A DNA stretch of 40,412 nucleotides from the NCBI GenBank assembly GCA_020438845.1, contig JAGQTV010000104.1, positions 1-40,412 on the forward strand. The letters run 5' to 3'. Below the pieces are notes generated by a model. That model made no database searches. It was not told the DNA's origin and was given only the letters and a program-made list of their open reading frames with translations. The position numbers and the translations under genes were made by a program. Positions 9,303 through 35,786 of this stretch are shown here, piece after piece (within the stretch, counting starts at the first letter, position 1; each line of letters begins with the position of its first letter). This stretch comes from Mycobacterium sp. Lineage in GTDB: Bacteria > Actinomycetota > Actinomycetes > Mycobacteriales > Mycobacteriaceae.

Positions 9303-9326
9303 CGTTCTCTGTCCTGTCTCCTCGGG

Positions 9327-17389: not shown

Positions 17390-18601
<1,212 letters not shown>

Positions 18602-18623
18602 GATAAGGGAGCTAAGTAAAACC

Positions 18624-20819: not shown

Positions 20820-20823
20820 CCGG

Positions 20824-20896
20824 TGCCCCCACTAGGACTCGAACCTAGGACCTGCGGATTAAAAGTCCGTAGCTCTACCAACTGAGCTATAGGGGC
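20824..20896 (-). tRNA. tRNA-Lys (anticodon UUU)
   Basis: On the minus strand the sequence folds into a complete cloverleaf of 73 bases. The acceptor stem is GCCCCTA/TGGGGGC with one G-T wobble. The D arm is GCTC/GAGC and the anticodon loop is CTTTTAA, giving UUU. The T arm is CTAGG-TTCGAGT-CCTAG and the discriminator base is A. CCA is not encoded. The closing pair of the anticodon stem is an A-C mismatch. It lies 49 bp downstream of the last gene of the minus-strand polysaccharide operon, so readthrough from that operon could reach it, but it has its own -10. Confidence 0.95.
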
Positions 20897-20945: not shown

Positions 20946-22124
20946 CTATACGACCGCGGCCAGAACTCCCACGACGTTGCCACCGACGCCCTTCAGATCC
21001 TCCGAAACGCGGGAGACGTTGGCCTTGGTGGACTCACCGGGCTCCACGACCAGCACTACTACGTCGGTGCGGTCGGTCAGTGCCGAGGCGAGCGGGCTGG
21101 ATACCGCCGGCTGGGTAGCGATGACGACCTGCTGGTAGGCGCCCCGGAGACGATCGATCAACGCCTCCGAAGCCGGGTTGGCGACCTGGTCGGGATCGCT
21201 GACCCACCCGTTGGCGGCCAGGACGTCCGGTGCACCGTCGGCACCCTCGGTCAGCCCTTGCTTGTCCGGCTCAGTTCCGGTGGCGTCGACGACGACGCTG
21301 CGAAGGCCGGCCAACTCAGTGGTGGTGGCCAGATTGACGGCGATCTGCTTTGCGTCAACGTCGGCGTCCACCGGGGACAATTGGATCACCTGGCCGTCGT
21401 GCTTGGCCAACACGGTGCGCAGACGGCGATAGGGGTCAAGCGCGGTAGCTGAATCGGCCGGTGCGGCGTCGACCTTGCCGACGACCGGCGCATCGGCCGC
21501 CGTGGCGGCTTGTCCGGGCACCCGCACCACTCGGTCCAGCAACGAGCGGATCCATACGGCGAAGGCTCCGATGAGTGCGGCCAGGATTGCGATGAGGATG
21601 CCGATCGAGATGCGCTCGACCAGACGCGACCGCGGAGCCGTGGCGTCGCTGACCACCCTGGTCTGGATCTTCTGCGCGTCCTCTCCCGTCGGTGACTCGA
21701 GTGCGGCCGTGTAGTCGATGAACTCCTTGGCGACGGTCTCGGCGATTTTGCGGGCCTGTTCAGGTGACCGATCACTGACTGCGACGTCGATGATCGCCGT
21801 CTTCGGGACCTGGACCGCGCTGATCTTGGCTGCCAGATCGCGTGGGCTCATCTTCAGGCCCAGTTTGTCGATCACCCGCTGGTCCACCGCATCGCTGGTC
21901 AGCAGTGCGAGGTAGGAGTTGACGCGGTTGGTCACCACGTCGTCGTTTTGATAGGCGTTCGCCGTCGAGGTGCCGTTGAGCGACACGAGCAACTGCGTGC
22001 TGGACACGTACTGCAGCGGCACGAACACCATCCACGCCGCGCCCATCGCCAGTACCGCCAGCGTGACCGCTGCAAAAGTCCGCCAGTACAACCGGATCAT
22101 GCCGAGAAACTCCCGCAGGTTCAC
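20946..22124 (-). CDS. Wzz-like copolymerase with degenerate kinase domain
   Basis: The 392-residue protein has the polysaccharide copolymerase plan. Transmembrane segment 1 is at about residues 18-38, and a Wzz-type extracytoplasmic coiled region follows, with STQLLVSLNG and DRSPEQARKIAETVAKEFI. Transmembrane segment 2 is at about 172-192. The cytoplasmic C-terminal half (about 230-392) resembles a bacterial tyrosine kinase/ParA-like domain, with SVVVDATG and DVVVLVVEPGESTKANVSR. However, the place of the Walker A loop reads SPVDADVDAKQIAVNLA (about 248-264) with no GxxGxGKST, and there is no Tyr-rich tail. It should therefore not bind ATP in the usual way. The role is probably chain-length control of the polymer in the membrane. 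It is the last gene of the operon, starting by ATGA overlap with the gene before. Confidence 0.8.
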   Translation of the reverse strand: MNLREFLGMIRLYWRTFAAVTLAVLAMGAAWMVFVPLQYVSSTQLLVSLNGTSTANAYQNDDVVTNRVNSYLALLTSDAVDQRVIDKLGLKMSPRDLAAKISAVQVPKTAIIDVAVSDRSPEQARKIAETVAKEFIDYTAALESPTGEDAQKIQTRVVSDATAPRSRLVERISIGILIAILAALIGAFAVWIRSLLDRVVRVPGQAATAADAPVVGKVDAAPADSATALDPYRRLRTVLAKHDGQVIQLSPVDADVDAKQIAVNLATTTELAGLRSVVVDATGTEPDKQGLTEGADGAPDVLAANGWVSDPDQVANPASEALIDRLRGAYQQVVIATQPAVSSPLASALTDRTDVVVLVVEPGESTKANVSRVSEDLKGVGGNVVGVLAAVV

Positions 22125-22807
22125 AAAGCCTCCAGCTCGTTCTTACCGTGTGTTTCAACCGATCCGTGGGCGCCTCCGGGGGCGCGATGCTGGCTGCCCC
22201 GCCCCGGCCCGAGCACCGCGCCGAGGGCCCCGAAGAACGCCCCGGCGACCATTGCTCCGATCACGACCCGATACAGCGGAGCGCCGAAGGCCATGACGCG
22301 GGTTCCGAGCTGTGGCGGGTCGACGACGAGGAGCTCGGCCCGCGGCAGTAGGCCGCCGGGCACCGTTTCCAGCGTGAGAACCTCTGCGGATAGCTCGTTG
22401 AGCAGCACCTCCGCGGTGCGGCGGGCCTCCTCTGCAGAGGGGGCGCTGACTTTCACCTGGAAGAGGGCCGTTTGAACGATGTGACGGGCTTGTATCCGCT
22501 GTGAGAGTTTCGCCGGCGACAGGTCCAAGCCCAGGTCGGCGATCACTCGGGCGGCCGTCCCGGGGCTCTTGGCCAAGGCGGCATACGTTTCGGCGCGGGT
22601 CTGCGCGTAGAGGTCGCCGCCGTCCATGGAATGACTGATGTCGCCAGGCGTGCGGACGAACACCGTGGCGGTCGTCCGGTACAGCGGGGGCCACAGGATC
22701 AGCAGTACGGCGGTGGCGGCGGTGGCCAGGATGACGCCCCAGGCGACCCACCGCCATCGGGCTCGCAGAATTAGGCCGTACCCGCGAAGCGTCGTGCTCA
22801 TGTTCAT
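22121..22807 (-). CDS. Wzz-like chain-length determinant protein
   Basis: The 228-residue protein is a short, kinase-less copolymerase homologue. Transmembrane segment 1 is at about residues 19-40 (WVAWGVILATAATAVLLILW). An extracytoplasmic Wzz segment follows, with TTATVFVRTPGD and SAPSAEEARRTAEVLLNEL. Transmembrane segment 2 is at about 177-200. A short basic, Gly-rich tail ends the protein. It would pair with the next protein in the operon to set polysaccharide length or to link polymerase and export. The ATG at 22807 overlaps the stop of the SGNH gene upstream (ATGA), and its own stop overlaps the next start. A second ATG two codons in (22801) is also possible. Its hydrophobic C-terminal segment is rich in Ala/Gly and could oligomerise. 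Confidence 0.75.
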   Translation of the reverse strand: MNMSTTLRGYGLILRARWRWVAWGVILATAATAVLLILWPPLYRTTATVFVRTPGDISHSMDGGDLYAQTRAETYAALAKSPGTAARVIADLGLDLSPAKLSQRIQARHIVQTALFQVKVSAPSAEEARRTAEVLLNELSAEVLTLETVPGGLLPRAELLVVDPPQLGTRVMAFGAPLYRVVIGAMVAGAFFGALGAVLGPGRGSQHRAPGGAHGSVETHGKNELEAL

Positions 22808-23595
22808 GTGGCCGGCTGCATCCCGTTCTGTGAAAATTCCTCAACCAGGGCCGCGGCCAGGGCTTCTTCGCCTTCGCGGTTGGGGTTGGTGCCATCCGGG
22901 GAGATCAGTCCCTTGGTATCGGTGTCCTTGAACCTGATGATCGGGTCGATGACCACCAGGTCCTTGACCTCGGTGGCCTGGCGGAGCAGGTCCACGATGT
23001 CGTCGTTCACGCCGAGGTCGTCATCGGGGGTTGCGAGAAAACGGGGCTTGACGAACACGATGCGGGCTTTCGGCCAGGTCTGGTGGGCCTGCCAGATCGC
23101 TGAGACAGTCACCTGGAAGCGGGCGACCGGCGGCGCAAACGTGTCGTCTCGACCGCCGTCGAAGATCACGATATCGGGACTGTAATACCTGCTCAGCGCC
23201 GTGACCCGCTCCCCGAAGGAGGACGATTGCCCGCGGCCCTGGTCGAGGGGAAATCGGTTGGCATCCCCACCGCTGATGTAGCCGGTGCCCGGTTCGGCTG
23301 CCAGTTGGCACAGCCAACCCATCTCGGTCACGGCTCTGCAGGCATACGAAGTTTCGGGTAGCCCGCTTCCTGAGGTGTAGGAATCGCTGATCACCAGGGC
23401 GGTGAGGAGTTTGGTCTGCGGCAGGGCAGGCCGCTGGATCTCGGCCGATGCGGGGGCGACGGCGACTATCGGCGTGTGTTGGGGCCGCAGCGCGAAACCA
23501 AGTGCCCCGGCCGCGGCGACAGCCGCCACCACCACCACGACGTCAGGGTGCCGCGGCCGCCTCACCGGAGTCCACCTCAACCGGGGCAGTTTCAC
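22804..23595 (-). CDS. SGNH-like membrane-anchored protein, altered active site
   Basis: The start is GTG 23595, which overlaps the stop of the gene before (GTGA); the frame is open further upstream only as an Arg-rich shadow. The 263-residue product has a signal anchor at about residues 17-37 (VVVVVAAVAAAGALGF), so the catalytic fold faces outward. The SGNH blocks are recognisable but changed. Block I reads VISDSYTSGSG (S70-D71-S72, Ser for Gly). Block III reads GGRDDTF (Asp for Asn). Block V reads PDGTNPNREG (D234-G-T-N237, Asn in place of the catalytic His). The Ser nucleophile remains. It may be a sugar-binding or weakened acyl-esterase relative; true catalytic function is uncertain. Confidence 0.7.
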   Translation of the reverse strand: MKLPRLRWTPVRRPRHPDVVVVVAAVAAAGALGFALRPQHTPIVAVAPASAEIQRPALPQTKLLTALVISDSYTSGSGLPETSYACRAVTEMGWLCQLAAEPGTGYISGGDANRFPLDQGRGQSSSFGERVTALSRYYSPDIVIFDGGRDDTFAPPVARFQVTVSAIWQAHQTWPKARIVFVKPRFLATPDDDLGVNDDIVDLLRQATEVKDLVVIDPIIRFKDTDTKGLISPDGTNPNREGEEALAAALVEEFSQNGMQPAT

Positions 23596-24269
23596 GGCTT
23601 GACCTCGGTCCGCACCCAGGCCGCGACCTTGTCGGCGATCATGGACTGGCCGTCGTCGTTGGGGCCACTCTTGTCGGCCAGCATCTGGTCGGGTCCCAGC
23701 CACGGCGGATCGAGTGTATTCAGGAAGGGAACGTCGGCCTGCTCGGTGGCTTTCTGGATCTCGTCGGATATTCCGGTGACGGTCGGCGGAACGGGCAGTC
23801 CCCACCAGATCGGTCCCATCACCAGAACCTGTTTACCCGCCCGGATCACCTTGTTGATGGCGTCGACGGCGCCCTGGGTGATGTTGCCGGTGCCGGAGAA
23901 GCCGCCGTCATCCACGCCGCCGGCGATCAGCACGGTATGCGGATTAGCCGCCAGGGCACGGTCCACTTGCCAGGTGAAGGCGTACCCGCCCGGGCCGTCG
24001 GCGGCGAAACCGGAACCGGGAAGGGCGAAGTTGGACACCGACCAGCCCGTCCGCTGCGCCAACAGTGTCGGCCATACCACCCGGTTCAGCCGACCGGCCG
24101 CGTAGGAGTCACCGACCACCGCGATGGTGACGGACGCCGGCGTCGCCGGTTTCTGGAACAGGACCATAGCCGCAGCGGTGATCCCGGCACCTACCAACGC
24201 GGCGACGGTAGCGACCACCGTCAACGTGCGGTTCAGGTGCAGTTTCTTGAGCCAGTTCGGCATTGTCAT
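23592..24269 (-). CDS. SGNH-like membrane-anchored protein, altered active site
   Basis: The ATG at 24269 is taken as start (MTMPNWLKKLHLNRTLTVVA), a few bases after the fcl stop; a GTG at 24272 is equally close. The 225-residue product has a signal anchor at about residues 16-38, then an SGNH fold. Block I is VVGDSYAAGRL (G53-D54-S55 intact), block III is AGGVDDGGF (Asp for Asn), and block V reads DKSGPNDDGQ (about residues 198-207) with Gly where the catalytic His should be. It resembles the neighbouring SGNH protein in layout and in the missing His, so the pair probably arose by duplication. SGNH proteins in polysaccharide clusters add or remove O-acetyl groups; here the chemistry is doubtful. 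Confidence 0.7.
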   Translation of the reverse strand: MTMPNWLKKLHLNRTLTVVATVAALVGAGITAAAMVLFQKPATPASVTIAVVGDSYAAGRLNRVVWPTLLAQRTGWSVSNFALPGSGFAADGPGGYAFTWQVDRALAANPHTVLIAGGVDDGGFSGTGNITQGAVDAINKVIRAGKQVLVMGPIWWGLPVPPTVTGISDEIQKATEQADVPFLNTLDPPWLGPDQMLADKSGPNDDGQSMIADKVAAWVRTEVKP

Positions 24270-24276
24270 CACAGAG

Positions 24277-25236
24277 TCATCCGCGGCAGTCGTTGTGGTG
24301 TTCGAGATACCACTGGTAGGTCCGCCGGATTCCCTCCTCCAGTCCAATCGTCGCGCGCCAACCCAGTTCGTTTATGCGCCGTACGTCCAGCAACTTCTGG
24401 TACGTGCCGTCGGGCTTCTCGGTGTCCCAGTCAACCTCGCCGTGGAAACCGACGATCTCCGCTGTCAGGTCGGCCAGTTCGGCGATCGACACGTCGCTGC
24501 CCGTCCCGACATTGATCGGTAAGTCATCATCGTAGTGCTCGAGGATGAAGTGGCAGGCCTCGGCGAAGTCGTCGATGTGCAGAAACTCCCGCTTGGGCTT
24601 GCCGCTGCCCCAGCACGTTGCGGTGGTGGCACCGGACTGGACCGCGTCGTGGAAGCGCCGGATCATTGCCGGCATCACATGGCTGCTGGCAGGGTTGAAG
24701 TTGTCACCCGGCCCGTAGAGGTTGGTGGGCATGGCGCACACGTAGGGCAGTTTGTGTTGTCGGCGGATGGCCGCGACCTGGGTGACGCCGGCCAACTTGG
24801 CCATGGCGTAGGCGTCGTTGGTCTCTTCCAGCGGGCCGGTCATCAGGGCCGTTTCGGGGATTGGCTGGGCGGTGAACTTCGGGTAGATGCAACTGGAGCC
24901 GAGGAACAGGAACCGCTGCACACCGGATGCCACGGCGCTGTCGAGGAGATTGACCTGGATTCGCAGGTTGTCGGAGAAGAAGTCCGCGGGCCGGCTGGCG
25001 TTGGCGGCGATGCCACCGACCAGGGCGGCGGCGTCGATCACCACTTCGGGTCGGGTCTCGGCGAAGAACGACGCGGTTGCACGTTGGTCACGCAGGTCGA
25101 GTTCGGTTGATGGCTTGACGATCAGATTCTCAAACCCGCGCGAGGAGAAATGCCGGTACAGAGCGGAGCCCACCAGGCCGCGGTGGCCGGCGATGAAGAT
25201 CCGGGTGCTCGGGTCCAGCGTGAATGCGGGCGTCAT
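24277..25236 (-). CDS. fcl: GDP-L-fucose synthase
   Basis: The 319-residue extended SDR starts at ATG 25236, overlapping the preceding stop by ATGA. The NADP loop is IAGHRGLVGSALYRHF (from about residue 14). FLGSSCIYPKF holds the catalytic Ser, and Y143-x3-K147 (YAMAKLAG) is the catalytic pair. PTNLYGPGDNFNPASSHVMP and KREFLHIDDFAEAC are typical of GDP-fucose synthase. It converts GDP-4-keto-6-deoxymannose to GDP-L-fucose by 3,5-epimerisation and NADPH reduction. The partner GDP-mannose 4,6-dehydratase is not in this window and must be supplied elsewhere. Fucose (or colitose/6-deoxyaltrose if the epimerase differs) is thus a likely component of the polymer. Confidence 0.9.
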   Translation of the reverse strand: MTPAFTLDPSTRIFIAGHRGLVGSALYRHFSSRGFENLIVKPSTELDLRDQRATASFFAETRPEVVIDAAALVGGIAANASRPADFFSDNLRIQVNLLDSAVASGVQRFLFLGSSCIYPKFTAQPIPETALMTGPLEETNDAYAMAKLAGVTQVAAIRRQHKLPYVCAMPTNLYGPGDNFNPASSHVMPAMIRRFHDAVQSGATTATCWGSGKPKREFLHIDDFAEACHFILEHYDDDLPINVGTGSDVSIAELADLTAEIVGFHGEVDWDTEKPDGTYQKLLDVRRINELGWRATIGLEEGIRRTYQWYLEHHNDCRG

Positions 25237-26327
25237 GTCCGGACTCCATAGCTGGCGGTGAGTTGATCGGCGATCGCACCCATTCCGAACCTCTCGCGGG
25301 CTGTCGTGCGCGCCCGCGCCCCATAGCCGGCGGGGTCCGCGAGCACCGTTCGCACCGCGTCGGCGAGCGCCGAAACCGTGCCCTTCGTCACGACGCCGGC
25401 TCGGGTCTCCGCAATCGTCGGGGCCAGCCCGCAGTCGTCGCATACGACGACTGGGAGTCCGACCGACATCGCCTCCAGCACCGCCATAGGATACGGCTCG
25501 CGCTCCGCGGCCAGAACATAGGCGGTGGCTTTTGCCAGACGGCTGGGGGCGTCGGCCGGATCGATCGCTCCGGCCCAGGTGATCCGGGTCTCGCCGCCAA
25601 TGGCCGCCTGCACCGCTGCGGCCTCGCCTTCGTCGGGTCCTACCAGGGTGAACCGGGCGTCGAGGCCTTCGGCCAGTAGTTGTTTGGCCACCGCCACGAA
25701 GAGGGTCGGGCGCTTGCGGGCATGCAGTCGGGCCAGACACAGGACCTCGGTAACCCCGGTGCGCTCCGGTCCGGCCGGATAGTCCGGAACTCCGTTGTGC
25801 AGTTGGGCCAGCGTGATCTCAGCGTGGGCGACCTCGCGCAGCTGAGTGCGCTCGAGGTCGGTCAGATAGAAGACCGCGCGGGCGTCGGCGAGCAGGCGGC
25901 GGGTCCATAGCGTGTCCAGCGGGCCGGCCAACGGGTTGCGTGACGGGATCACCATGCCGTGGGTCTGCAGAACGTAGGGGAGTCGCAGCCGGCGGGCCAG
26001 CGCGGCCACCGGCAGCACCATCAGGTCGCGGCCGAAGTGGAAGTGGACGACGTCGAAGTCCCCGGCGTGGGCGTCGAACCAGCGGATCAGGCCGGGTACC
26101 CACATGCCGGGGAAGCCCAGGCCCGGCAACAGCGTGCGGGCCGGGAAGAGTCGTAGCGGCACTCCGCCGATGTCGGTGGGCGGTATCGGGTAGCCGCGGG
26201 TCCCGGCGGCCAGCGTGACGTCGTGGCCCTTCCGGATCAACGCCGCGCTCTGGTTGATCGCCACTCGGGCCGGGCCGCCGAACGCGCCGTCCGGGGACAG
26301 CAGGGAGACGACCTGCAGAATGCGCAT
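25233..26327 (-). CDS. Glycosyltransferase, GT4 family
   Basis: The start is ATG 26327 (MRILQVVSLLSPDGAFGGPA), sharing one base with the preceding stop; the longer frame upstream is Arg-rich shadow. The 364-residue protein has the GT-B layout. The N-terminal GGPARVAIN loop is near residue 17. VLCLARLHARKRPTLFVAVA (about 195-214) opens the donor domain. The E-x7-E pair is in EREPYPMAVLEAMSVGLPVV (about 283-302). YVLQTHGMVIPSRNPLAGPL near 122 is the GT4 acceptor-side segment found in transferases of exopolysaccharide clusters (HGM). It adds one sugar to the lipid-linked repeat unit on the cytoplasmic side. Whether it is the fucosyltransferase cannot be judged from sequence. Confidence 0.85.
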   Translation of the reverse strand: MRILQVVSLLSPDGAFGGPARVAINQSAALIRKGHDVTLAAGTRGYPIPPTDIGGVPLRLFPARTLLPGLGFPGMWVPGLIRWFDAHAGDFDVVHFHFGRDLMVLPVAALARRLRLPYVLQTHGMVIPSRNPLAGPLDTLWTRRLLADARAVFYLTDLERTQLREVAHAEITLAQLHNGVPDYPAGPERTGVTEVLCLARLHARKRPTLFVAVAKQLLAEGLDARFTLVGPDEGEAAAVQAAIGGETRITWAGAIDPADAPSRLAKATAYVLAAEREPYPMAVLEAMSVGLPVVVCDDCGLAPTIAETRAGVVTKGTVSALADAVRTVLADPAGYGARARTTARERFGMGAIADQLTASYGVRT

Positions 26328-26902
26328 CAGCTCCGGACGATCTCCGACGGCGGTGGCAGCACGATCGAGTCCGGCGGAACGTCGCGGGTGACCAGGGCGG
26401 TCGCGGCCACGGTGGAGTTCGCCCCCACGGTCACTCCGCGCAGAACGGTGGACCGGGCACACAACCACACCCCGTCCTCCAGGACGATCGGTGCGTTGTC
26501 GAACTCGAAGGTGGGGGAGTGCCTGTCGTGGCTGCCAGTGCAGACGTAGGCGTGCTGGGAAATGACCACGTCGTTGCCCAGGGTGATGTGGTCGAGGTTA
26601 TACAGATCGACGTCGGTGCCCACCCAGGAGTTGTGGCCGATGGTCAGCTTCCACGGCCACTGGATACGGACCCGGTGACGCACCAGTACCCCATCGCCGA
26701 GCTGGGCGCCGAACGCGCGCAGGATTGCTATGCGCGCGCCGTTGGGGCACCAGACGCGGGTGAAGACGGTGCTCTGCACGGCCACCCACAAGGCCTGCCA
26801 GAGGACTCCGCGACCCTTATCGTAGGGCCGCCCCAGACGCGCTGCCAGCGAGCGTTTGGAGATCGAAACCGACACATCGACAACGTTAGCCGGTGACCTC
26901 AT
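26327..26902 (-). CDS. WcaF-like hexapeptide O-acetyltransferase
   Basis: The 191-residue protein has the left-handed beta-helix acetyltransferase pattern. ILRAFGAQLGDGVLVRHRVR and WKLTIGHNSWVGTDVDLYN are hexapeptide repeats, and ITLGNDVVISQHAYVCTGSH carries the catalytic His. PIVLEDGVWLCARSTVLRGV follows. The N-terminal GRGVLWQALWVAVQSTVFTR segment and overall length match WcaF/putative colanic acid acetyltransferases. It transfers acetyl from acetyl-CoA to a sugar hydroxyl of the lipid-linked unit. The ATG at 26902 overlaps the previous gene by 17 bp; a GTG at 26875 would remove the overlap and is a fair alternative. Third gene from the end of the divergent core, coupled to the GT4 gene after it. 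Confidence 0.8.
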   Translation of the reverse strand: MRSPANVVDVSVSISKRSLAARLGRPYDKGRGVLWQALWVAVQSTVFTRVWCPNGARIAILRAFGAQLGDGVLVRHRVRIQWPWKLTIGHNSWVGTDVDLYNLDHITLGNDVVISQHAYVCTGSHDRHSPTFEFDNAPIVLEDGVWLCARSTVLRGVTVGANSTVAATALVTRDVPPDSIVLPPPSEIVRS

Positions 26903-27719
26903 CCCAGGAGGTCAGACCGGTCACCTGCCGCAGCTCCTCGTCGTCCAGATCCCGCTTGGGCGCCCAGCCGACGGGCTTGCGGGCCACCATCGACCAGGTG
27001 TCGCGGGTACCCGGCATCAGCCGGCTCACCGCTCGGTAGGCGCGTCGGATCCGGGGCGGGACCTGACCGAGCATGTGGTGGGCACCGGTGAGTTCGACGA
27101 CCTCCAAGTCGAGAGCTCGGGCCAGGGCTTCGCAGTCGCCGCGGGTGTACTCCCGCACGGGGCCGCGCCAGCGCAGTCCCGGATACCAGTAGTAGACCTC
27201 GTAACGAGGGTTGTTGGTGCGGCCCCGTAGGACGGCGATCCGTTTGCGGAGGTTCACGTGGTTGGGGACGGTGACGAACAGGTAGCCGCCCTCGCGAACC
27301 CGTTCGAGCAGGCCGATCAGCAGGTGACGCGGGGAGTCGTGCAACTCCTCGAGCACGTCGTGCAGCATCAGCATGTCGAACTTTTCATCGGCCTGGAGCT
27401 CGTCGAGCGAAGTGAGGTACTCGATGCCCATCCCGCGCGCGAAATCCAGGATGCGCTTCCTGGCGTTGCCCCGCTGGTGCCACTCGTCACTGAGGTCGTC
27501 GATGGCGGTGCAGCGGTAGCCCAGTGCTGCCAAGGGGGCTGTCTTGTCGGCCGCCCCCGCGCCGAAGTCGAGCAGGCGAGAGCCCGGCGGAAGATAGCGG
27601 GCGACGGTTCGGACGATGCCCTGATGCCCGCCCAACGCCGGATCGAAATAGCCGCGGAAGGGGAATCGGGCAAGGGCATCGGCGCAGGCCCGCTCCACCT
27701 GTGACTGCGTGACGTGCAT
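26886..27719 (-). CDS. SAM-dependent methyltransferase (class I)
   Basis: The 277-residue protein has a full Rossmann methyltransferase core. Motif I is LLDFGAGAADKTAPLAALGY (about residues 49-68). CTAIDDLSDEWH is the acidic strand. DMLMLHDVLEELHDSPRHLL (about 115-134) is motif IV with the adjoining helix, and VREGGYLFVTVPNHVNLRKR (about 142-161) is motif VI. It is the first gene of the eight-gene minus-strand operon, divergent from the polymerase gene with 58 bp between starts. The VPNHVNLRKR and YTRGDCEALA segments are seen in glycan-associated enzymes of this kind, so it probably methylates a sugar or a terminal residue of the chain, perhaps ending elongation. Exact target unknown. Confidence 0.75.
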   Translation of the reverse strand: MHVTQSQVERACADALARFPFRGYFDPALGGHQGIVRTVARYLPPGSRLLDFGAGAADKTAPLAALGYRCTAIDDLSDEWHQRGNARKRILDFARGMGIEYLTSLDELQADEKFDMLMLHDVLEELHDSPRHLLIGLLERVREGGYLFVTVPNHVNLRKRIAVLRGRTNNPRYEVYYWYPGLRWRGPVREYTRGDCEALARALDLEVVELTGAHHMLGQVPPRIRRAYRAVSRLMPGTRDTWSMVARKPVGWAPKRDLDDEELRQVTGLTSWDEVTG

Positions 27720-27777
27720 GCGGCTATCGTTTCACCCAGCAGATCGGAATTGGGCAGAAGGCGGCAGGCGGGAGGGC
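27720..27777. promoter_or_regulatory. Divergent promoter region of polysaccharide locus
   Basis: Only 58 bp separate the start codons of the minus-strand methyltransferase and the plus-strand polymerase, so both operons must be driven from here or from inside the 5' ends of the genes. TATCGT (27725-27730) is a possible plus-strand -10 but lacks a good -35. GGAGGG at 27771-27776 is the RBS of the polymerase gene. Confidence 0.35.
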
Positions 27778-29037
27778 ATGACGGTGACATTGGCCGGTTC
27801 CACACCGCTGGGCGCCGTGCCGGTGCTGCGCCGCCACGATCCAGTACTCCGGGGCCACCTGGCGGTGTTCGCCATCGGCGCCACCTCCGGCATACACCTG
27901 ATGCAGTACGCGGCTACCGGGCTGTCGGTGATCTGCCTGCTGCTTGTTCCCGGCTACCTATTGATGACCCACCGAGGCGTGGATCTGCTGCCGCTGCTGC
28001 TCGCGGTGCTCGGCTGGATTTCGTTCCTGATAACCAGCCTGGTCAATCAGGTGACTCTGCTGTGGCCCAATGCGCTCGGGCCGGGAGCGTTTTCGCTTTA
28101 TCTGATCGGGCTGACGGTGCTCACTGGACGGTCTGTGGACAAGATCGCCTGGGTGCTCGGCGGCGTCGGGCTCGGGGTGGTCATCTTTTTCGCCGGCCGC
28201 GGCATCGAACTGACCAACACCGGCAGCTTCCTGAATGTCTGGAAATACGGCGTCGCGCCGGGCTTCACGATCCTGTTGGTGTTCTTACTCGTCGTCGCGA
28301 GGATGAGGCCCACCCGGATCGCTGTGGTGCTGCTGCTGCTTGGCCTGGCGAGCCTGGGGCTGAACTACCGCTCCCACGCGCTGGTGTGTCTGCTGGCGGC
28401 CGCGACGTTGTGGACGCGGGCCATCTTCGGTGACCGGGTCAAGAAGGGCTGGCAGTTCGCCGGGGTGATCGGCGTCGGCCTGGTGTTCGGCAACGTGATG
28501 CCGGCCCTGGCGCGCACCGGGCTTTTCGGGCCGGCTTTGCAAACCAAGACCTTGGAGCAGGACACCGCCCATCTACCGATCCTGCTGGCCGGGCGCACTG
28601 AGCCGCCGATGAGCTTCACCGCGATCATGGAGCACCCCTGGCTGGGGTGGGGAAGCGCGCTGCGGTTGACGCCGGACTTCTACGCCCGCGCAGAGCATCT
28701 GGCGTTGCGCTGGGGCTACGAGCCGACCTTCGAGTTCGTCGGCTACTGGCGGCTACCGCCCAACGACTACTCCTTCCACTCGATCATCCTGGGCTCGTGG
28801 GCCGAGGGCGGCCTGCTGGCCGCGCTGATGCCGCTATGGTTGCTGTTCGCCTGTGTCGCCATGGTGTGGAACTTCACTCGGTATGGCCGCTGGGCCCCGA
28901 TGGTCCTCACGGTGTCTTTGCAGACCATCTGGGACCTGCAGTTCGCACCGTGGATGTACAACGCGCCCGCCATCTATGCGTGCCTCGCGTTGTTGTTCTG
29001 CGCCGGGCATTTCCGAGGCCGAACCGTCCCCTCGTGA
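27778..29037 (+). CDS. Wzy-like polymerase / O-antigen ligase family protein
   Basis: The ATG at 27778 follows GGAGGG and is preferred over the earlier ATG at 27709, which lies in the divergent gene's 5' end. The 419-residue protein is a polytopic membrane protein with about ten to eleven hydrophobic segments. A large extracytoplasmic loop at about residues 260-335 contains LLAGRTEPPMSF and EHPWLGWGSALRL. The latter matches the [HN]PxxGxG-type motif of the O-antigen ligase/Wzy superfamily. Such proteins join flipped repeat units into polymer on the outer face of the membrane, or ligate polymer to an acceptor. It is followed directly by a GT2 and a flippase in a coupled operon, which favours the polymerase role. 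Confidence 0.8.
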   Translation: MTVTLAGSTPLGAVPVLRRHDPVLRGHLAVFAIGATSGIHLMQYAATGLSVICLLLVPGYLLMTHRGVDLLPLLLAVLGWISFLITSLVNQVTLLWPNALGPGAFSLYLIGLTVLTGRSVDKIAWVLGGVGLGVVIFFAGRGIELTNTGSFLNVWKYGVAPGFTILLVFLLVVARMRPTRIAVVLLLLGLASLGLNYRSHALVCLLAAATLWTRAIFGDRVKKGWQFAGVIGVGLVFGNVMPALARTGLFGPALQTKTLEQDTAHLPILLAGRTEPPMSFTAIMEHPWLGWGSALRLTPDFYARAEHLALRWGYEPTFEFVGYWRLPPNDYSFHSIILGSWAEGGLLAALMPLWLLFACVAMVWNFTRYGRWAPMVLTVSLQTIWDLQFAPWMYNAPAIYACLALLFCAGHFRGRTVPS

Positions 29038-29909
29038 CCGTCAGTGTCGTCATCCCCACGGTGGGACGGTCGTCGCTGCACCGGGCTGTGGAATCAGTGC
29101 TCGGCCAGACCGAACCGGTGGACGAGGTCATCATCGTCGCCGATACCGCCGAGCCGGTCTCGTACCCCGTCGACGATCGAATCATGCTGTTGCGCAACGA
29201 GAGCAACTCCGGTCCGGCTGTCAGCCGCCGCCGCGGCATCGACGCCGCCAGAGGCTCGGTGATCGCCCTGCTGGACGACGACGACGAGTGGCATCCGGAC
29301 AAGCTTCAGCGTCAATTGGCCGCCGTCGCGGGTGCGGGTCCGCACTGGATCGCGTCCTGCCGGATGGAAGCTGTCGGCCCGGGGGATCGACGGCGCGTGT
29401 GGCCCCGCCGTGTCATCGGGGCGCGGGAACCCGTCGGCGACTACCTGTTTCGATTCACCGACCTGCGGCACGGCGGGCGTGCACTGCAGACCTCCACGCT
29501 GTGCTTTCCGGCTGAGTTGGCTCGTGCCGTGCACTGGGACGCCCATGCCGGTGCGGTTCATGACGAACCCAGTTGGCTCCTGGCGGTCGCCCGGCAGTTT
29601 CCCGATCTTCGCGTGATCCAACTCCCCGAGGTACTGAGCACCTATCACGTGGCGCACTCGTCGCTGTCCCGTCAGCAGGTCGACCTGACCGACAGTTACA
29701 TCGCCTGGGGGCTGCGGTACCTGGCCGGTGAATCGCCCCGGGTGCGCGGCGACTACCTGTGTTCCAGTCCGGTTAGCGCCGCCGTGACCGCCCGGTCGCT
29801 GTCCGGAATCGGGCGCGCGGTACGGGCGTCGTTCCGCCACGGCCGTCCCGGATTGCCGGCCCTCGGCTTCGCCGCGCTGAGCGCGGTGCGGCTCCTGGTG
29901 CGTCGATGA
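29034..29909 (+). CDS. Glycosyltransferase, GT2 family
   Basis: The GTG at 29034 overlaps the polymerase stop (GTGA). The 291-residue protein begins TVSVVIPTVGRSSLHRAVES, the GT-A nucleotide-binding strand and helix. NSGPAVSRRRGIDAARGSVI (about residues 59-78) and ALLDDDDEWHPDKL (about 79-92) give the DxD metal site. The C-terminal half contains HDEPSWLLAVARQFPDL (about 176-192), where the Asp-Glu is the probable catalytic-base region. It is inverting by family. No transmembrane segment is visible, so it acts at the cytoplasmic face on the lipid-linked unit. It and the GT4 in the minus-strand operon are the only two sugar-adding enzymes here besides the initiating transferase. Confidence 0.85.
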   Translation: MTVSVVIPTVGRSSLHRAVESVLGQTEPVDEVIIVADTAEPVSYPVDDRIMLLRNESNSGPAVSRRRGIDAARGSVIALLDDDDEWHPDKLQRQLAAVAGAGPHWIASCRMEAVGPGDRRRVWPRRVIGAREPVGDYLFRFTDLRHGGRALQTSTLCFPAELARAVHWDAHAGAVHDEPSWLLAVARQFPDLRVIQLPEVLSTYHVAHSSLSRQQVDLTDSYIAWGLRYLAGESPRVRGDYLCSSPVSAAVTARSLSGIGRAVRASFRHGRPGLPALGFAALSAVRLLVRR

Positions 29910-31252
29910 CCGCCGACCCCGATCGGCTCACCAAGGCCGAGCGCCGGTCGGCGATCTTCGGCCCGCTCTACCGGATCCTCGGCACCCCGGTGGTGGCGCT
30001 GCTGGGCTTGGCCAACACCGCGATCATCGTCCGAGAGACAGGGGCGGCCGTCTTCGGCCTGGTGGCGCTGGTGGCCACCATCACCCTGTTGTTCCCGTTC
30101 GCCGATCTCGGGATCGGGGCGACCGCGATGACCGCTGGTGCCCAACTGAGCGGACCCCTGCAGGACCCGCATGCCGCCGATGTCATCCGCCGCTCTTATC
30201 ACGTGCTGTTCGGCGTGGCGGGGGCTGTAATCCTGGCCGCCCTTGGCGTGATGGCGGCTGATCGGTGGACGGTGCTGACCGGATTCTCCAGCGGTCCCGA
30301 CGACCGGTGGGCCATCACCGTGGCGGCGTGTGTGTTCGCGTTGACCATTCCGGCCGGTCTAGGGGTGCGCATACTCGGCGGTTTGGACCGGGTTCCGCTG
30401 GCCAGCCTCATCTTGATGAGCAACTCGCTGTTCGCACTGGCGATCACCGGTGTGCTCTACCTGATCGGCGCACCCGGGATCTGGTACGCGGTCTCGGCCC
30501 TGGGCGGTCTGCTGATCGGCCAACTCGTTGGCACCGTTCTGGCTGCGCGATTGTCCGGGCTGGGATGGTCGTCGTTCGGCCGGGTCCGGACCCGTGGCAC
30601 GCGGCTGCTCCGCGGCAGTCTCTGGCTGTTCCTGATGGGCGTCGGACTACCCATCGGGTTCCAAGCCGGGCGAGTCATCCTGGCGCATCGCTCGACCCCA
30701 CTGGAGTTGTCCGAATACGCGCTGATGGCGCAGATCTACGGGGTGTGCTGGGCGGCGTTCATGATGGCGGGATTCGCCCTGTGGCCCATATTCGTGAAGC
30801 GCCGCAACATGGTTGGAGCCACTCTGCGGATCTGGGGACAGATGACAGCCCTGCTGGGAGGTCTCGCCATGGTGGTCACGGTGATCTTCGTCCTGTTGGC
30901 GCCGTGGGCCGGCCGAATCCTGTCCGGCGGCAGCATCACGATCTCCGCGCAGTTGGCGTTGGCGTTCGGCGCTCTGCTGGTGGGCCAGAGCACGTATTTG
31001 TCGTCCAACATGTTGTTGACCCGGCCCGAGGAAGCTCGCTGGCAGGCCTGGTGGGCGCTGACGATGGCGGCGGTGAGTGTGGGGCTGGGCGCGTTGGCCG
31101 CGCCACGGTTCGGGGCTGCCGGTGTCGGCTACTCGGCCGCGATCGCGGTTCTCATTGCGCAGGTGGTTCCAGCTCTATTGTGGGTTCCTCGGATGGTGCG
31201 GAGACGGCCGGTGGGAGACGCTTCAACAATCGAGCCTTCTGGCCAATCATGA
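29906..31252 (+). CDS. Wzx-like polysaccharide flippase
   Basis: The ATG at 29906 overlaps the GT2 stop (ATGA). The 448-residue protein has about twelve hydrophobic segments spread evenly, beginning with GPLYRILGTPVVALLGLANT and ending with AAIAVLIAQVVPALLWVP. This is the plan of the MOP/MATE-type oligosaccharide flippases (Wzx, RfbX). FADLGIGATAMTAGAQ (about residues 69-84) is the typical Wzx loop after the second helix. It would move the undecaprenyl-diphosphate-linked repeat unit across the cytoplasmic membrane for the polymerase. Its last 101 bp overlap the convergent acetyltransferase gene, with both reading frames intact there. Confidence 0.8.
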   Translation: MTADPDRLTKAERRSAIFGPLYRILGTPVVALLGLANTAIIVRETGAAVFGLVALVATITLLFPFADLGIGATAMTAGAQLSGPLQDPHAADVIRRSYHVLFGVAGAVILAALGVMAADRWTVLTGFSSGPDDRWAITVAACVFALTIPAGLGVRILGGLDRVPLASLILMSNSLFALAITGVLYLIGAPGIWYAVSALGGLLIGQLVGTVLAARLSGLGWSSFGRVRTRGTRLLRGSLWLFLMGVGLPIGFQAGRVILAHRSTPLELSEYALMAQIYGVCWAAFMMAGFALWPIFVKRRNMVGATLRIWGQMTALLGGLAMVVTVIFVLLAPWAGRILSGGSITISAQLALAFGALLVGQSTYLSSNMLLTRPEEARWQAWWALTMAAVSVGLGALAAPRFGAAGVGYSAAIAVLIAQVVPALLWVPRMVRRRPVGDASTIEPSGQS

Positions 31253-31808
31253 CGTCGCCGGGGCCGACGTCGTCGAGGACGACGGCACCCGCGCCGATGA
31301 ACGCGCCATCGCCCACGGTGATGTCACCCAGCACCAAGGCTCCAGCGCCGATCGTGACGTGGTCGCCGATCGTGGGCGCGCCATGTTCGTCCGTGAACCC
31401 TATGGTGACCTGCTGGTTGAGCCAGAAATGGCTCCCGATTGATTTGGCGGCCACCAGGGTGGCGATGCCGTGCTGAATGAAGCAGGCCGGGCCCAGGCTG
31501 TCAGGTTCGAAGATGACGGCTTCCTGGCCCTTGTAGAGCCGGCGCATCAGCAGCCGGACCGGCAACGGGCTTGTGCCGCGCAGCCGATAGTGAACCAGCG
31601 TGCGGAACTCTGACAAGGCGCCGGTGAAGAAGGAGAACCGGGTCCGGGTGTCCATCGCGGCGAGGTTCTCATCCTTGAGGCACTCGACCCACCAGTCGAC
31701 GTCGGCCAGGATGTCATGCCGCGCTGGCGACCGCATAGCAGTGACCCATAGTGGATAAGCCCAGATACGCGCCAGTTTCAACAGGATTGGCGGGCGAGGC
31801 GGCGGCAT
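31152..31808 (-). CDS. Serine acetyltransferase-like O-acetyltransferase
   Basis: The ATG at 31808 is chosen over the longer frame because it lies just after the GH16 stop (13-bp gap) and gives the natural N-terminus MPPPRPPILLKLARIW. The 218-residue product has a helical N-terminal half and a C-terminal left-handed beta-helix. ACFIQHGIATLVAAKSIGSH and WLNQQVTIGFTDEHGAPTIG (with the catalytic His) are characteristic of the CysE/serine O-acetyltransferase branch. GDHVTIGAGALVLGDITVGD continues the coil. CysE-like proteins inside polysaccharide clusters usually acetylate sugars rather than serine. The last ~33 residues are antisense to the flippase gene and are Pro/Glu-rich (SAPSEEPTIELEPPAQ), so they may be a later extension. 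Confidence 0.75.
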   Translation of the reverse strand: MPPPRPPILLKLARIWAYPLWVTAMRSPARHDILADVDWWVECLKDENLAAMDTRTRFSFFTGALSEFRTLVHYRLRGTSPLPVRLLMRRLYKGQEAVIFEPDSLGPACFIQHGIATLVAAKSIGSHFWLNQQVTIGFTDEHGAPTIGDHVTIGAGALVLGDITVGDGAFIGAGAVVLDDVGPGDVMIGQKARLLKRLPPAVSAPSEEPTIELEPPAQ

Positions 31809-31821
31809 GAAACCGATTCTA

Positions 31822-32640
31822 TTAAGTGGGCATCGGTGTGTAAGTGAACTGATCAACCAGCATGGTTGCCGGCCATGGGGTGGAGGCGTCCGGAGGCCCA
31901 GGCCAGGGGCCGCCGACAGCGATGTTCAGCAGCGCGTACATCGGCTCGTTGAACACCCATTTCCCGCCGGGCGGCAGCGACTCAGGGGTGAAACTCCCCA
32001 GCGTCTGCTCGTCGACCCCGATGACGATCGAATTCGGCGCCCAGTTCAACCAGTAGTTGTGAAAATCGTCGGTCAGATCTGGGATCGGACCCCTCGCTCC
32101 GACTACCTTGCCACTGGCCGCTCCGCCGCCGTAATAGTCGGTGCCACCCTGCGGTCCGTGTAACGCGACGTGGAACGTGTCGCCGTTGTTGACTAGTTCC
32201 ATGATGTCGATCTCGCCACAGTCGGGCCAGGCTGAGGGGTCATCGGGGTGATAATTCGTTCCGAGCAGCCAGAACGCCGGCCAGATTCCCTGTCCGGAGG
32301 GAAATTTGATGCGAGCGCTGATGGTCCCGTACTGCATGGTGAGCTTGCCGCGGGTCACAGGCCGCGCAGACGTGTAGCCGTCCGGTGCAGGACGCGCCTG
32401 GATAACCAGGTGGCCGTCGCCGTCGAGGCGGACGTTGTCGGGGTTAAGGGTGTAGGTCTGCAGTCCGTCGTCTCGCCATGGGCCGAGATCGAAGTCCCAC
32501 AGCGCTGGGTCGGGTAGTGAGCCTGCTGGTCCGTCGAAGTTGTCGATGATCGTGCCGGGTGATTGTGCCGACGCGACCGCTGGACAGGTACTTCCTGTCA
32601 GAGTGACTGCCAAGATCAGCGTGAGGAATCTTCGCTTCAT
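31822..32640 (-). CDS. Secreted GH16 beta-glucanase-like hydrolase
   Basis: The ATG at 32640 gives a 272-residue preprotein with a clear signal peptide (MKRRFLTLILAVTLTGSTC, cleavage probably after ASA near residue 25). The GH16 catalytic motif is E143-I-D145-I-M-E148 in DCGEIDIME; E143 is the nucleophile and E148 the acid/base. TMQYGTISARIKFPSGQGIW and FWLLGTNYHPDD before it, and HNYWLNWAPNSIVIGVD after it, are standard. GH16 enzymes cleave beta-1,3- or mixed beta-1,3/1,4-glucans and related galactans. Placed in an export cluster, it parallels ExoK of rhizobial succinoglycan loci, which trims the secreted polymer. The polymer may therefore contain a beta-linked glucose or galactose in its backbone. 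Confidence 0.85.
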   Translation of the reverse strand: MKRRFLTLILAVTLTGSTCPAVASAQSPGTIIDNFDGPAGSLPDPALWDFDLGPWRDDGLQTYTLNPDNVRLDGDGHLVIQARPAPDGYTSARPVTRGKLTMQYGTISARIKFPSGQGIWPAFWLLGTNYHPDDPSAWPDCGEIDIMELVNNGDTFHVALHGPQGGTDYYGGGAASGKVVGARGPIPDLTDDFHNYWLNWAPNSIVIGVDEQTLGSFTPESLPPGGKWVFNEPMYALLNIAVGGPWPGPPDASTPWPATMLVDQFTYTPMPT

Positions 32641-32823
32641 GATGCTGGCAAGCGTATCGGCGATTGCAGTGTCTACTGGCACCGGGCGACCTGGCCCGTC
32701 ACTCCTCTGCGTGTCAGGGTGAGTTAAGTCCAGTGGTTCATAGCATCCCGCCTGCAGGGCGAGATACGGCTCAACACGACGATGACGATTTCCAGCCTGG
32801 CTGTTGGCGGGGAAAATGGGCCG

Positions 32824-33216
32824 ATGGGTTCACCGCATCCACGCTCGGAAGGGCCGCGACGGCGGCGTACGTTCAGCCCGGCTGAGAAGCTGGCGCACCT
32901 GGAGGCCTACCAGCAGGCCTGCTCAACCAACGGAGGCGGGGCCTATCTGCGCCGCGAGGGCCTGTATTCCTCGCTGATCTGCTAGTGGCGCAAGCACCGC
33001 GACGCCGGGCTGCTTCGGGACAAGCCGACCGGGGCGAAAGTCGGCAGGCTCACCGCCGAGCAGGCCGAGATCGCCCGGCTGAAGGGTGAACTCGACAGGA
33101 CAGCCAGGCGGCTGGCCACCACTGAGGCAGCTTTGGAGATCATGGGAAAAGCACACGCGCTCTTGGAGAGTCTCTCCGAGAGCGCGGAGTCGCCGAGCAC
33201 GCCGAGACGGCGTTGA
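32824..33216 (+). pseudogene. IS3-family orfA, interrupted by a stop
   Basis: The frame starts MGSPHPRSEGPRRRRTFSPA, and the helix-turn-helix region AEKLAHLEAYQQACSTNGGG and YLRREGLYSSLI follow. An in-frame TAG at 32983-32985 (residue 54) falls just before WRKHRDAG, a segment conserved in this orfA family. The remaining part contains the leucine-zipper region LTAEQAEIARLKGELDRTAR and ends at the TGA at 33214-33216. The reading frame is otherwise intact, so a single nonsense change disabled it. Confidence 0.75.
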
Positions 33217-33242
33217 TGCATGTCTGAAACGCGGGGCGCTCG

Positions 33243-34226
33243 CAAGGAATCCCAACTCGGGCGGCGGCGGAGTTGACCGGCATGAACTGCTCGACCGCGC
33301 TGCGTCGCGCCGCACCCAAGCCGGCCACGCCGGCTCGGGGTTCCCGGTGCCGGTCAACAAGCTCACCGCCGCTGAGTGCGCCCGAGTTCTCGATGAGCTC
33401 AACAGCGCCCGCCTCGTCGACACCACCCCGACGCAGGTGTGGGCCACGCTGCTCGAGGAGGGCACCTACCTGTGCTCGGTCTCCACGATGTATCGCATCC
33501 TGAATGCGAACAAACAGGTCAAAGAGCGCCGCCGGCGGGCCCGGCACCGCAAAGCGGTCTGCCCGGAGCTGGTGGCCACCGCCCCGCCGGCAGGTGTACT
33601 GCTGGGACATCACCAAACTGGCCGGCCCGGCTAAGGGGATCTACTACGACGCCTACGTGATGATCGACATCTATTGCCGTTACATCGTCGGGGTCCATGT
33701 CGACGCCCGCGAATGCGGGGTGCTGGCCACTGAGATGATGGAACAGATCTTCGGCACCTATGGCGTCCCGCACGTCGTCCACGCCGATCGGGGAACGTCG
33801 ATGACCAGCAACAGCGTCGCCGGGCTGCTTGCCGAACTGGGCGTGACGGGCTCGCATTCGCGGCCCAAGGTCTCCAACGACAACCCCTACAGCGAGTCGT
33901 GGCTCAAGACCCTCAAGTACGCCCCGACCTTCCCGGAACGGTTCCAATCCATCCACCACGCAAGGGACTTCATGAACGAATTCGTCGCCTGGTACAACCA
34001 CGAGCGCCGCCACAACGGCATCGGCCAGCACACCCTCGCCGAGGTCTTCTACGGCCTGGCTAAGGATAAAGACACCGCTCGCCGAGCTGTCCTGGCCGAT
34101 GCCCGAGCGCGCCACCGGCACCGCCTCAGCGGCGACACCGCACCCAAGATCATCAACCTACCCCAGACCGCCGCGATCAACCCACCCAAACCAGCAGAAC
34201 CGCAGAGCCGGACCGCCGCCGCCTGA
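33243..34226 (+). pseudogene. IS3-family orfB (DDE transposase), frameshifted
   Basis: Three frames must be joined. They are GIPTRAAAELTGMN up to about 33345, then PVPVNKLTAAECARVLDELN to LVATAP near 33585, then RQVYCWDITKLAGPAKGIYY to the TGA at 34224-34226. The second break sits at CCGCCGG near 33590 and looks like a one-base insertion. The DDE triad is present across the frames: D in YCWDITKL, D in VVHADRGTSM, and E in DNPYSESWLKTLKY. YNHERRHNGIGQHTLAEVFY completes the integrase core. The transposase cannot be made from this copy. Confidence 0.8.
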
Positions 34227-34343
34227 CACCCCCTGGACTCAAACACCTTGACAAGTTCCGCTCGGGGAAGGCTGTATCTGGGCTAACGTGAATTGGCAGG
34301 ATTGCGATCACGGTGGGATGCAAAGCTTATTGACCTTAGGTGG

Positions 34344-35786
34344 TCAGTACGCGCCGTTGCGCCCCAACACCGCGCGCACCGTCTTCAGGATGAGGACTAG
34401 GTCGGTGCCCATCGACCAGTTCTCCACATAGGACAGGTCCAGCCGAACTGACTGATCCCATGTCAGGTCCGAGCGTCCACTGACTTGCCACAACCCGGTA
34501 ACTCCAGGGCGCACCAAAAGCCGCCTGCGGACCTCGCCGTCGTATGTTGCGACCTCACGCTGCAGAGGCGGCCGGGGACCCACCACTGACATGTCACCTC
34601 TGATGACGTTGATGAACTGAGGGATCTCGTCGATGCTGAAGCGCCGCAGTATCTTCCCGACCGGGGTGATGCGGGGATCCTCCCGCATTTTGAACAAGAC
34701 CCCGCCGTGGCTCTCGTTCTGGTGGGCTAGATCATCCAGCAGTGCCTCGGCGTTGCTCACCATGGTGCGCAGTTTGAGCATGGTGAACGGTTCTCCGTCC
34801 AGTCCGACGCGCTCGGCGGCGTAAAACACCGGGCCTCGGCTGGTGAGTTTGACAGCGACGGCCGCCACAAGAAGCACAGGAGCCGCTGCGGTGAGTGCGG
34901 CCGCAGCGAAGCAAATGTCGAACGTCCTTTTGTGGAAGCGTTTGGCTTCCTGATAGTGGGGCCGTTCGACGTGCAGCAGCGCGTAACCCGGGATGGGATG
35001 CATCATCAACCGGGTCGACGTGGGCGAGACGATCAGGTCGATGTCCTGGGATTCCAAATCCCAGAGCAGGTTGCGGATACCACGGCTGCCGAAGCGTTCC
35101 ATGCCGGTTAGCGCCACGGTGTTCGCGCCGCATTTCTTGAGCGCGGCCAAAGCCTGCCTCTCGTCGCCAAGAATTGACACCCGTGTTCCCGCGACATCGA
35201 GAGTGTCCCCGTGTTCATGGTCGTAAATTCCGACACCGACAACGTCGTAGAAGTGGTCGCTATTTCGGGTCAGGTCGCTCACCAGCGTCACCACTGCATC
35301 ACGATCGCCGATGACGACCAGAGGGTTCTGACAGTCGCCCCTGGCCCGCCGCAGAACCATATGCCTGCGCCACGCCCACCGGCTGATCAACAGCCCAAAA
35401 GTTCCAGCGGGCAATGCGACTGCGAGATAGCCGCGGGAAGGCTCAACTTTCAACAGGAGGGCCACGATCGCGACAAAGCCGAACACCCAGAAGGTGGCAC
35501 TTCCAACCCTGCGGTACTCGTCGAGTCCTGCACCGAGCACCCGTGGTGAGCGGGTCTGAAAGATACTCAGCGCCGCCAACCACATCAGGCCGAGGACGAA
35601 AGGAAGGGGCCCCATCGCTCCGTGGGCGAAGATTCCCAAAGGCGTGACGTCAAATCGGACGTACTGCGCTAGCAACAAGGCGGCGAGAACGACCAAGAGG
35701 TCTGTCACCAGCAAGCGCGGACCGTAGCGCGTCTGCCAGTGCGTCCCATGGGAAGTCCGAACTGCTACTGGGATCTTGGTGACCAA
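34344..35786 (-). CDS. Undecaprenyl-phosphate sugar phosphotransferase (WbaP type)
   Basis: The TTG at 35786 is supported by GGAGGG 6 bases upstream. The 480-residue protein has four hydrophobic segments in its first ~130 residues. A Rossmann-like middle domain contains NPLVVIGDRDAVVTLVSDLT (about residues 154-173). A fifth hydrophobic segment, near 296-316, leads into the catalytic bacterial sugar transferase domain. Key segments there are ERVGLDGEPFTMLKLRTMV, ITPVGKILRRFSIDEIPQFI, GDMSVVGPRPPLQREV and RPGVTGLWQVSGRSDLTWDQ. It transfers hexose-1-phosphate (usually glucose or galactose) from a UDP-sugar to undecaprenyl or decaprenyl phosphate, the first step of repeat-unit assembly. It is separated from the other locus genes by the IS3 element and so needs its own promoter. 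Confidence 0.9.
   Translation of the reverse strand: MVTKIPVAVRTSHGTHWQTRYGPRLLVTDLLVVLAALLLAQYVRFDVTPLGIFAHGAMGPLPFVLGLMWLAALSIFQTRSPRVLGAGLDEYRRVGSATFWVFGFVAIVALLLKVEPSRGYLAVALPAGTFGLLISRWAWRRHMVLRRARGDCQNPLVVIGDRDAVVTLVSDLTRNSDHFYDVVGVGIYDHEHGDTLDVAGTRVSILGDERQALAALKKCGANTVALTGMERFGSRGIRNLLWDLESQDIDLIVSPTSTRLMMHPIPGYALLHVERPHYQEAKRFHKRTFDICFAAAALTAAAPVLLVAAVAVKLTSRGPVFYAAERVGLDGEPFTMLKLRTMVSNAEALLDDLAHQNESHGGVLFKMREDPRITPVGKILRRFSIDEIPQFINVIRGDMSVVGPRPPLQREVATYDGEVRRRLLVRPGVTGLWQVSGRSDLTWDQSVRLDLSYVENWSMGTDLVLILKTVRAVLGRNGAY

Follow-up and report, generated by a model that had tools for sequence, protein, structure and literature searches.

A predicted Wzx/Wzy-type polysaccharide locus in a Mycobacterium genome

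Does a mycobacterium carry the genes for a polysaccharide made by the Wzx/Wzy-dependent route? To our knowledge, the textbook glycans of the mycobacterial envelope are made by other routes. The question was raised by a stretch of 40,412 nucleotides from Mycobacterium sp. (the window), which is the whole of contig JAGQTV010000104.1 (C87), one of the 118 contigs that make up a 4.53 Mb genome. An earlier note, made from the letters of the window, had described nearly a full Wzx/Wzy machine at positions 20946-35786, a region neighboured by fadB. This description was borne out by the protein families, the fold of the Wzx protein, the profile matches of relatives and the gene order, and we consider it probable, at roughly 80%, that the region is a functional Wzx/Wzy-dependent heteropolysaccharide locus in a Mycobacterium of environmental type. 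Judged by its genes, the locus is of a known type in an unexpected genus; the same gene set occurs in Rhodococcus and Nocardia.

Flippase, polymerase and conservation of the locus

The predicted Wzx-type flippase of the MOP superfamily is encoded at 29906-31252 (plus strand). Its AlphaFold model had a pLDDT of 80.9 and matched the structures of MATE, WzxE and MurJ proteins, with 50 Foldseek matches at E ≤ 0.001. In a scan at E ≤ 10, PF01943 was matched by 9 of 15 members of its family (best 3.2e-12), the window's own protein not being among them. The predicted Wzy-type polymerase is encoded at 27709-29037 (plus strand), with a start perhaps near 27778 as judged by eye. At the same threshold 5 of 14 family members matched Wzy_C (PF04932; best 3.6e-7), again without the window's own, which reached 4.7e-4 against PF04932 in the genome search, below cut-off. 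Conserved stretches in this family are LAGRTE, GW.S and HS. Thus the MOP fold and PF01943 relatives of the one protein and the Wzy_C relatives of the other did not place the pair in unrelated transporter families, an outcome that the earlier note had named as fatal to its proposal.

The same note had suggested searching mycobacterial genomes for these proteins and looking for synteny. Of 396 Mycobacterium genomes, 29 had a Wzx match at E ≤ 0.001. In 17 of these the identity was at least 47%, a line that was set after the data had been seen, and these 17 are exactly the genomes that have Wzy; in the remaining 12 the Wzx relatives are weaker and a Wzy of this kind is absent. When 259 genomes sampled across the order were searched, Wzy had four matches, one of them in the window itself and the other three weak (E 1e-14 to 1e-21). 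Named records were scanned by Wzx alone with two peptide patterns, a procedure that may miss loci, and 63 loci were obtained. Wzy, a GT2 glycosyltransferase and Wzx were collinear in 37 of them, and Wzy was inverted in one more; 25 lacked the triad, two of these on short contigs. In the window the GT2 gene runs from about 29034 (start by eye) to 29909 on the plus strand (PF00535 1.6e-19, DDDD motif). Because the order recurs in 37 of 63 loci found by Wzx alone, we concluded that the locus is more than a chance assembly of genes.

By the titles of their records, the 38 core loci belong to Mycobacterium/Mycolicibacterium, Rhodococcus/Rhodococcoides, Nocardia, Aldersonia, Williamsia, Antrihabitans and one Actinomycetota bin. 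Counting a gene as present when its score exceeded 50 bits in the stretch fetched, which reached up to 10 kb a side, a WcaF-like acetyltransferase was found in 36, a GT4 glycosyltransferase in 30, a second acetyltransferase (AcT2) in 29, the long Wzz-type protein (WzzK) in 28 and the short one (Wzz2) in 23. Two SGNH-fold proteins (SGNH1 and SGNH2) and GDP-L-fucose synthase (Fcl) followed with 22 each, the initiating hexose-1-phosphate transferase (PHPT) with 8, and a GH16 protein and a methyltransferase (MT) with 2 each.

The host is a mycobacterium by its FadB (18573-20759), which matched over its full length at 84-90% identity in 21 of the 24 further genomes of the same genus, while the best match outside its own family reached 68%. 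Of the remaining three genomes, one has a FadB split in two (81 and 86%), and the others, both incomplete, gave only weak matches. A foreign source of the window, which the earlier note had also allowed for, is therefore not what we found.

The nearest relative of the locus was found in the uncultured actinobacterial bin Loclat_bin-09341, grouped by the genome search with the same genus, whose Wzx is 85% identical. There one contig holds Wzy-MT-AcT-GT4-Fcl-SGNH1 and a second one GT2-Wzx-AcT2-GH16, in the order of the window. In a FastTree phylogeny of 39 concatenated Wzy-GT2-Wzx sets the window and the Loclat bin were paired with a support of 1.0 inside a clade of 12 tips (0.98), which is mycobacterial except for the bin with the title Actinomycetota; a separate branch holds four further loci of mycobacteria. 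The ratio of nonsynonymous to synonymous substitutions (dN/dS) against the Loclat bin was 0.12-0.25 for nine genes, with Wzy and SGNH1 compared over partial lengths. The substitution pattern indicates that the locus is under purifying selection where compared.

Gene content and predicted pathway

Open reading frames and profile scans placed every gene listed in the earlier note where it had been put, and added the two SGNH-fold proteins, an IS3-family remnant and a tRNA-Lys gene at the edge. What follows on chemistry, linkage, export and a role at the surface we infer from gene content. PHPT (34344-35786, minus strand) is an initiating polyprenyl-phosphate hexose-1-phosphate transferase by PF02397 (8.9e-66) and TIGR03025 (397 bits, cut-off 295.55), with the motifs KLRTM, DEIPQ and GPRP. 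It would transfer a hexose-1-phosphate onto polyprenyl phosphate; the WbaP and WcaJ models both stayed below cut-off, and the profiles assign no sugar specificity. The GT4 glycosyltransferase (25233-26330, minus; PF00534 3.2e-22) and the GT2, possibly with glycosyltransferases coded elsewhere, would extend the unit inside the cell. Two hexapeptide acyltransferases would add O-acetyl groups, namely the WcaF-like enzyme (26327-26902, minus; NF007797 6.9e-54, 182 bits, cut-off 192) and AcT2 (31152 to about 31808-31856, minus; PF00132 7.8e-10), which is nearest to serine acetyltransferases, below cut-off (NF041874 1.6e-23). The S-adenosylmethionine-dependent MT (26886-27719, minus; PF13489 1.2e-9), an accessory gene also present in the nearest relative and in two loci of Williamsia, would decorate the unit further. 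Wzx would then flip the unit, and Wzy would join units outside the cell.

Chain length would be set by two Wzz-type co-polymerases, a short form (22121-22807, minus; PF02706 4.6e-7, over cut-off) and the long WzzK (20946-22124, minus; PF02706 1.4e-7, over cut-off). The C-terminal domain of WzzK is similar to tyrosine kinases of bacteria (TIGR01007 2.1e-7, below cut-off). Yet the Walker A motif of the kinase-type co-polymerases Wzc and CpsCD was present in none of 15 WzzK sequences, the window's and 14 from the loci of Rhodococcus, Aldersonia and Nocardia that we call class I, and none of the four TIGR01007 matches in the genome was over cut-off. The Wzz pair would apparently work without kinase activity.

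The membrane-anchored SGNH1 (23592 to about 24269, minus; PF13472 1.8e-11, over cut-off) and SGNH2 (22804 to about 23595, minus; PF13472 3.8e-7, 31.2 bits, cut-off 32.9) would edit or trim the polymer together with the GH16 protein. The latter (31822 to about 32640-32682, minus; PF00722 2.2e-17) resembles endo-beta-glycanases, has an N-terminal hydrophobic stretch as in a secreted protein and an EIDIME motif, and is an accessory gene whose close copies are confined to the loci of Mycobacterium sp. OTB74 and of the Loclat bin. Among SGNH homologues of at least 36% identity, SGNH2 keeps the block-I serine in 18 of 18 sequences and the block-V histidine in 17 of 18 aligned, while SGNH1 keeps the serine in 9 of 19 and the histidine in 3 of 19. 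The pair reads as an enzyme and its degenerate paralogue.

The product is most likely an O-acetylated repeat-unit exopolysaccharide or a loose capsule, perhaps akin to the exopolysaccharides of Rhodococcus, and the best guess is that one of its sugars is fucose. Fcl of the WcaG type lies in the locus (24277-25206, minus; NF047922 2.7e-126; motifs GSSCIYP and YAMAK), and a Gmd is encoded on contig C22 of the same genome (TIGR01472 492 bits, cut-off 415). Together they predict that GDP-fucose can be made, by Fcl in the locus and Gmd elsewhere. In this respect the earlier note's fucose-containing repeat unit is plausible, but Fcl is not diagnostic of it: a strong Fcl match (E < 1e-80) was present in 138 of 396 genomes, 10 of 17 with Wzy and 128 of 379 others (one-sided p 0.034). 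The profile itself matched in 395 of 396 genomes at E ≤ 0.001 and exceeded the curated cut-off in none, the window's included. In some core loci without Fcl, WzzK has a UGD-like gene and an epimerase-like one next to it instead, and therefore fucose is a guess for the window; the sugar-supply genes look exchangeable between loci. Fucose as a component of the whole family was not supported, seven of the 17 Wzy-positive genomes being without a strong Fcl. A Gmd-type gene lies near Fcl in 5 of 18 class-I loci and an extra GT4 in 4 of 18 (one of each was family-scanned). The extra GT4 had no match in the fetched stretches of the window's genome; a fucosyltransferase may therefore be coded at another place, or one of the two glycosyltransferases of the locus may serve as such. 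The repeat of three sugars proposed earlier is a lower bound, because the genome codes for other glycosyltransferases.

We also considered, tentatively and with more doubt than confidence, a variant of the Wzx/Wzy pathway peculiar to the mycolate lineage. Here the kinase-dead Wzz pair would set chain length, the extracellular SGNH enzyme and its degenerate partner would acylate the polymer, perhaps with fatty acids, and the capsule, being partly hydrophobic, could rest on the mycomembrane or get through it with no known outer-membrane exporter. How a long polymer would pass the mycomembrane is a question raised by the locus itself, in which no exporter gene was recognised. The conservation of the locus in 17 of 396 sampled Mycobacterium genomes implies a surface polymer left out of current envelope models, which would bear on the surface properties, biofilms and phage adsorption of environmental mycobacteria.

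Objections and alternative explanations

Several observations weigh against a functional Wzx/Wzy locus. The window's own Wzx and Wzy gave no Pfam match at E ≤ 0.001, and for this reason their assignment rests on relatives, on neighbourhood and, for Wzx, on the fold. The assignment of Wzy is the softer of the two, its model being poor (pLDDT 59.9) with no fold match at E ≤ 0.001, and searches of PDB sequences with both profiles gave no match at E ≤ 10. A MATE protein ranks first among the fold matches of Wzx, and the Foldseek ranking alone does not separate Wzx from a MATE exporter. Neither an OPX exporter nor an LCP ligase turned up among the locus proteins scanned. PHPT is split off from the other genes by the IS3 remnant and lay within the fetched 10 kb in just 8 of 38 core loci. 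Fcl scored 421 bits against a curated cut-off of 500, and four of the seven Wzy-positive genomes without a strong Fcl are 99-100% complete. The window's SGNH2 is the only sequence with asparagine in place of the block-V histidine (about 22885-22887), and for that reason it may be inactive as well. As to selection, the GT2, PHPT and Wzz genes, which were not available in the Loclat bin, are outside that dN/dS set; 13 genes compared with OTB74 gave a dN/dS of 0.15-0.35, but with dS above 1, near saturation.

The best surviving alternative, which we regard as improbable, is that the product of the locus is a lipid-linked oligosaccharide or the head group of a glycolipid, similar to the sugars of mycobacterial lipooligosaccharides or glycopeptidolipids, with the Wzy-like protein acting as a ligase to a lipid or cell-wall acceptor. 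PF04932 takes in O-antigen ligases as well as polymerases and does not separate the two for Wzy, and in 5 of 18 class-I relatives, unlike in the window's locus, a further protein of the Wzy_C type could be the polymerase or a ligase. On the other hand, the locus has two Wzz-type proteins, and chain-length regulators would make little sense without polymerisation; furthermore, the stretch between WzzK and PHPT yielded no gene for polyketide or lipid synthesis.

Somewhat less probable again is a decaying, horizontally acquired island whose polymer is no longer made in this strain. The IS3 remnant inside the locus, the lost histidine of SGNH2, the tRNA-Lys at the edge, the lower GC content of the PHPT end (60-63% per kb) and a broken sugar-dehydrogenase copy in the island to the left would all fit such a history. 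Yet the core reading frames are open, nine genes have the low dN/dS against the nearest relative given above, and the tree sets the window among mycobacterial loci. Moreover, the GC content of the locus is mostly 63-69% per kb, close to the 66-67% of the adjoining fad genes, while that of the left island is 50-65%. The notion of a MATE-type exporter with sugar genes nearby by chance, suggested by the first rank of a MATE structure in the fold search, is scarcely credible given PF01943 in 9 of 15 family members, the fixed order in 37 of 63 loci and the occurrence in the same 17 genomes as Wzy. Thus we favor the view of a functional Wzx/Wzy-dependent locus.

Related systems and genomic setting

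The colanic acid and group 1 capsule system shares PHPT, Wzx, a putative Wzy, Wzz, Fcl and both a WcaF-like and a serine-acetyltransferase-like acetyltransferase with the mycobacterial locus. In contrast to it, the latter has a Wzz kinase-like domain without Walker A, fewer genes and no outer-membrane exporter gene among the proteins scanned. Homologous collinear clusters are present in several Rhodococcus species, R. maanshanensis for one, to which the strains of published exopolysaccharide composition (RHA1, R. rhodochrous, R. erythropolis PR4) are not linked here. Compared with these clusters the mycobacterial copy has GH16 and MT as accessories and lacks the extra Wzz-like gene. This third Wzz-like protein was seen by eye in 12 of 18 class-I loci and had no Pfam match; neither it nor the second Wzy_C protein was found in the window or other fetched stretches of the genome.

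Rhodococcus exopolysaccharides are reported to contain glucose, galactose, fucose and glucuronic acid, some with fatty-acid esters (PMC12786566). In Corynebacterium glutamicum, wzx, wzy and wzz lie beside glycosyltransferase genes near cg0420, and two glycosyltransferases of that region are tied to mannan and arabinomannan in the same paper (PMC7305114); compared by description only, this too is an actinobacterium with mycolates for which a Wzx/Wzy pathway is predicted. The imp/wps genes of Actinoplanes missouriensis are described as predicted Wzx/Wzy clusters with a role in sporangium formation, one with sulfotransferases (PMC13390465), and are thus also actinomycete clusters of this kind, by description only. 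Excerpts of other papers mention a region of R. equi possibly for extracellular polysaccharide (PMC2947987), name mycobacteria in the references only (PMC10937973), or treat the Wzy route and arabinogalactan apart (PMC7831098). A search of the open-licence literature, subscription papers being outside its scope, turned up no account of a Wzx/Wzy locus for an exopolysaccharide in mycobacteria.

At the edge of the locus a tRNA scan placed tRNA-Lys(TTT) at 20822-20896 (minus strand). Between fadB and this gene lies an inverted repeat (20773-20819) whose 21-base arms match perfectly around a loop of 5 bases. Promoter- and terminator-like sites in the region occurred at chance level only. The IS3-family transposase remnant (about 32860-34226, plus strand) lies between GH16 and PHPT and is coding in two frames as seen by eye; PF00665 matched 33504-34226 with 3.3e-16, and IS3 elements of plasmids matched as well. 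Three ideas on the arrival of the locus were discarded. A plasmid or phage origin was dropped, as Wzy had no match in the plasmid collection and the locus DNA none in phage records; the 11 plasmid records matching locus DNA are IS3 or short pieces. As for a fixed insertion site, fadA-fadB was present in none of the loci fetched around Wzx and a clean empty site was not seen; in the other mycobacteria that were compared, some 20 kb or more separate fadB from the SDR-ACAD genes. Nor is tRNA-Lys a general landing site, with a tRNA in the fetched stretch of none of six core loci scanned.

The earlier note had set the Wzx/Wzy route apart from known mycobacterial glycan pathways. This stood for the locus, but not as a claim of uniqueness within the genus: initiating transferases of PF02397 are present in 305 of 396 Mycobacterium genomes, far more commonly than this locus, and the same genome has a second Wzx/Wzy-type locus on contig C76. 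Further polysaccharide loci, as judged by these profiles, are probably widespread in Mycobacterium. The C76 locus encodes a Wzx over the PF13440 cut-off, a Wzy_C protein over cut-off, four proteins with GT4-type domains, an FkbM methyltransferase and a PHPT.

The window itself has a second polysaccharide island of lower GC content at 1435-16538, with a transposase at the contig end. It encodes two GT4s, an epimerase, a nucleotide-sugar dehydrogenase (over cut-off), an acyltransferase 3, methyltransferases, a heparinase II/III family protein and an amidotransferase of the asparagine-synthase type (TIGR01536 over cut-off; TIGR03108 of XrtA systems below). The broken UDP-glucose/GDP-mannose dehydrogenase copy lies at 11456-12153 in two pieces and different frames (PF00984, PF03720). 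Finally, contig C27 (5.5 kb) carries a membrane-protein-like reading frame, Wzx-like by eye and without a Pfam match, and a further Wzy_C match over cut-off.

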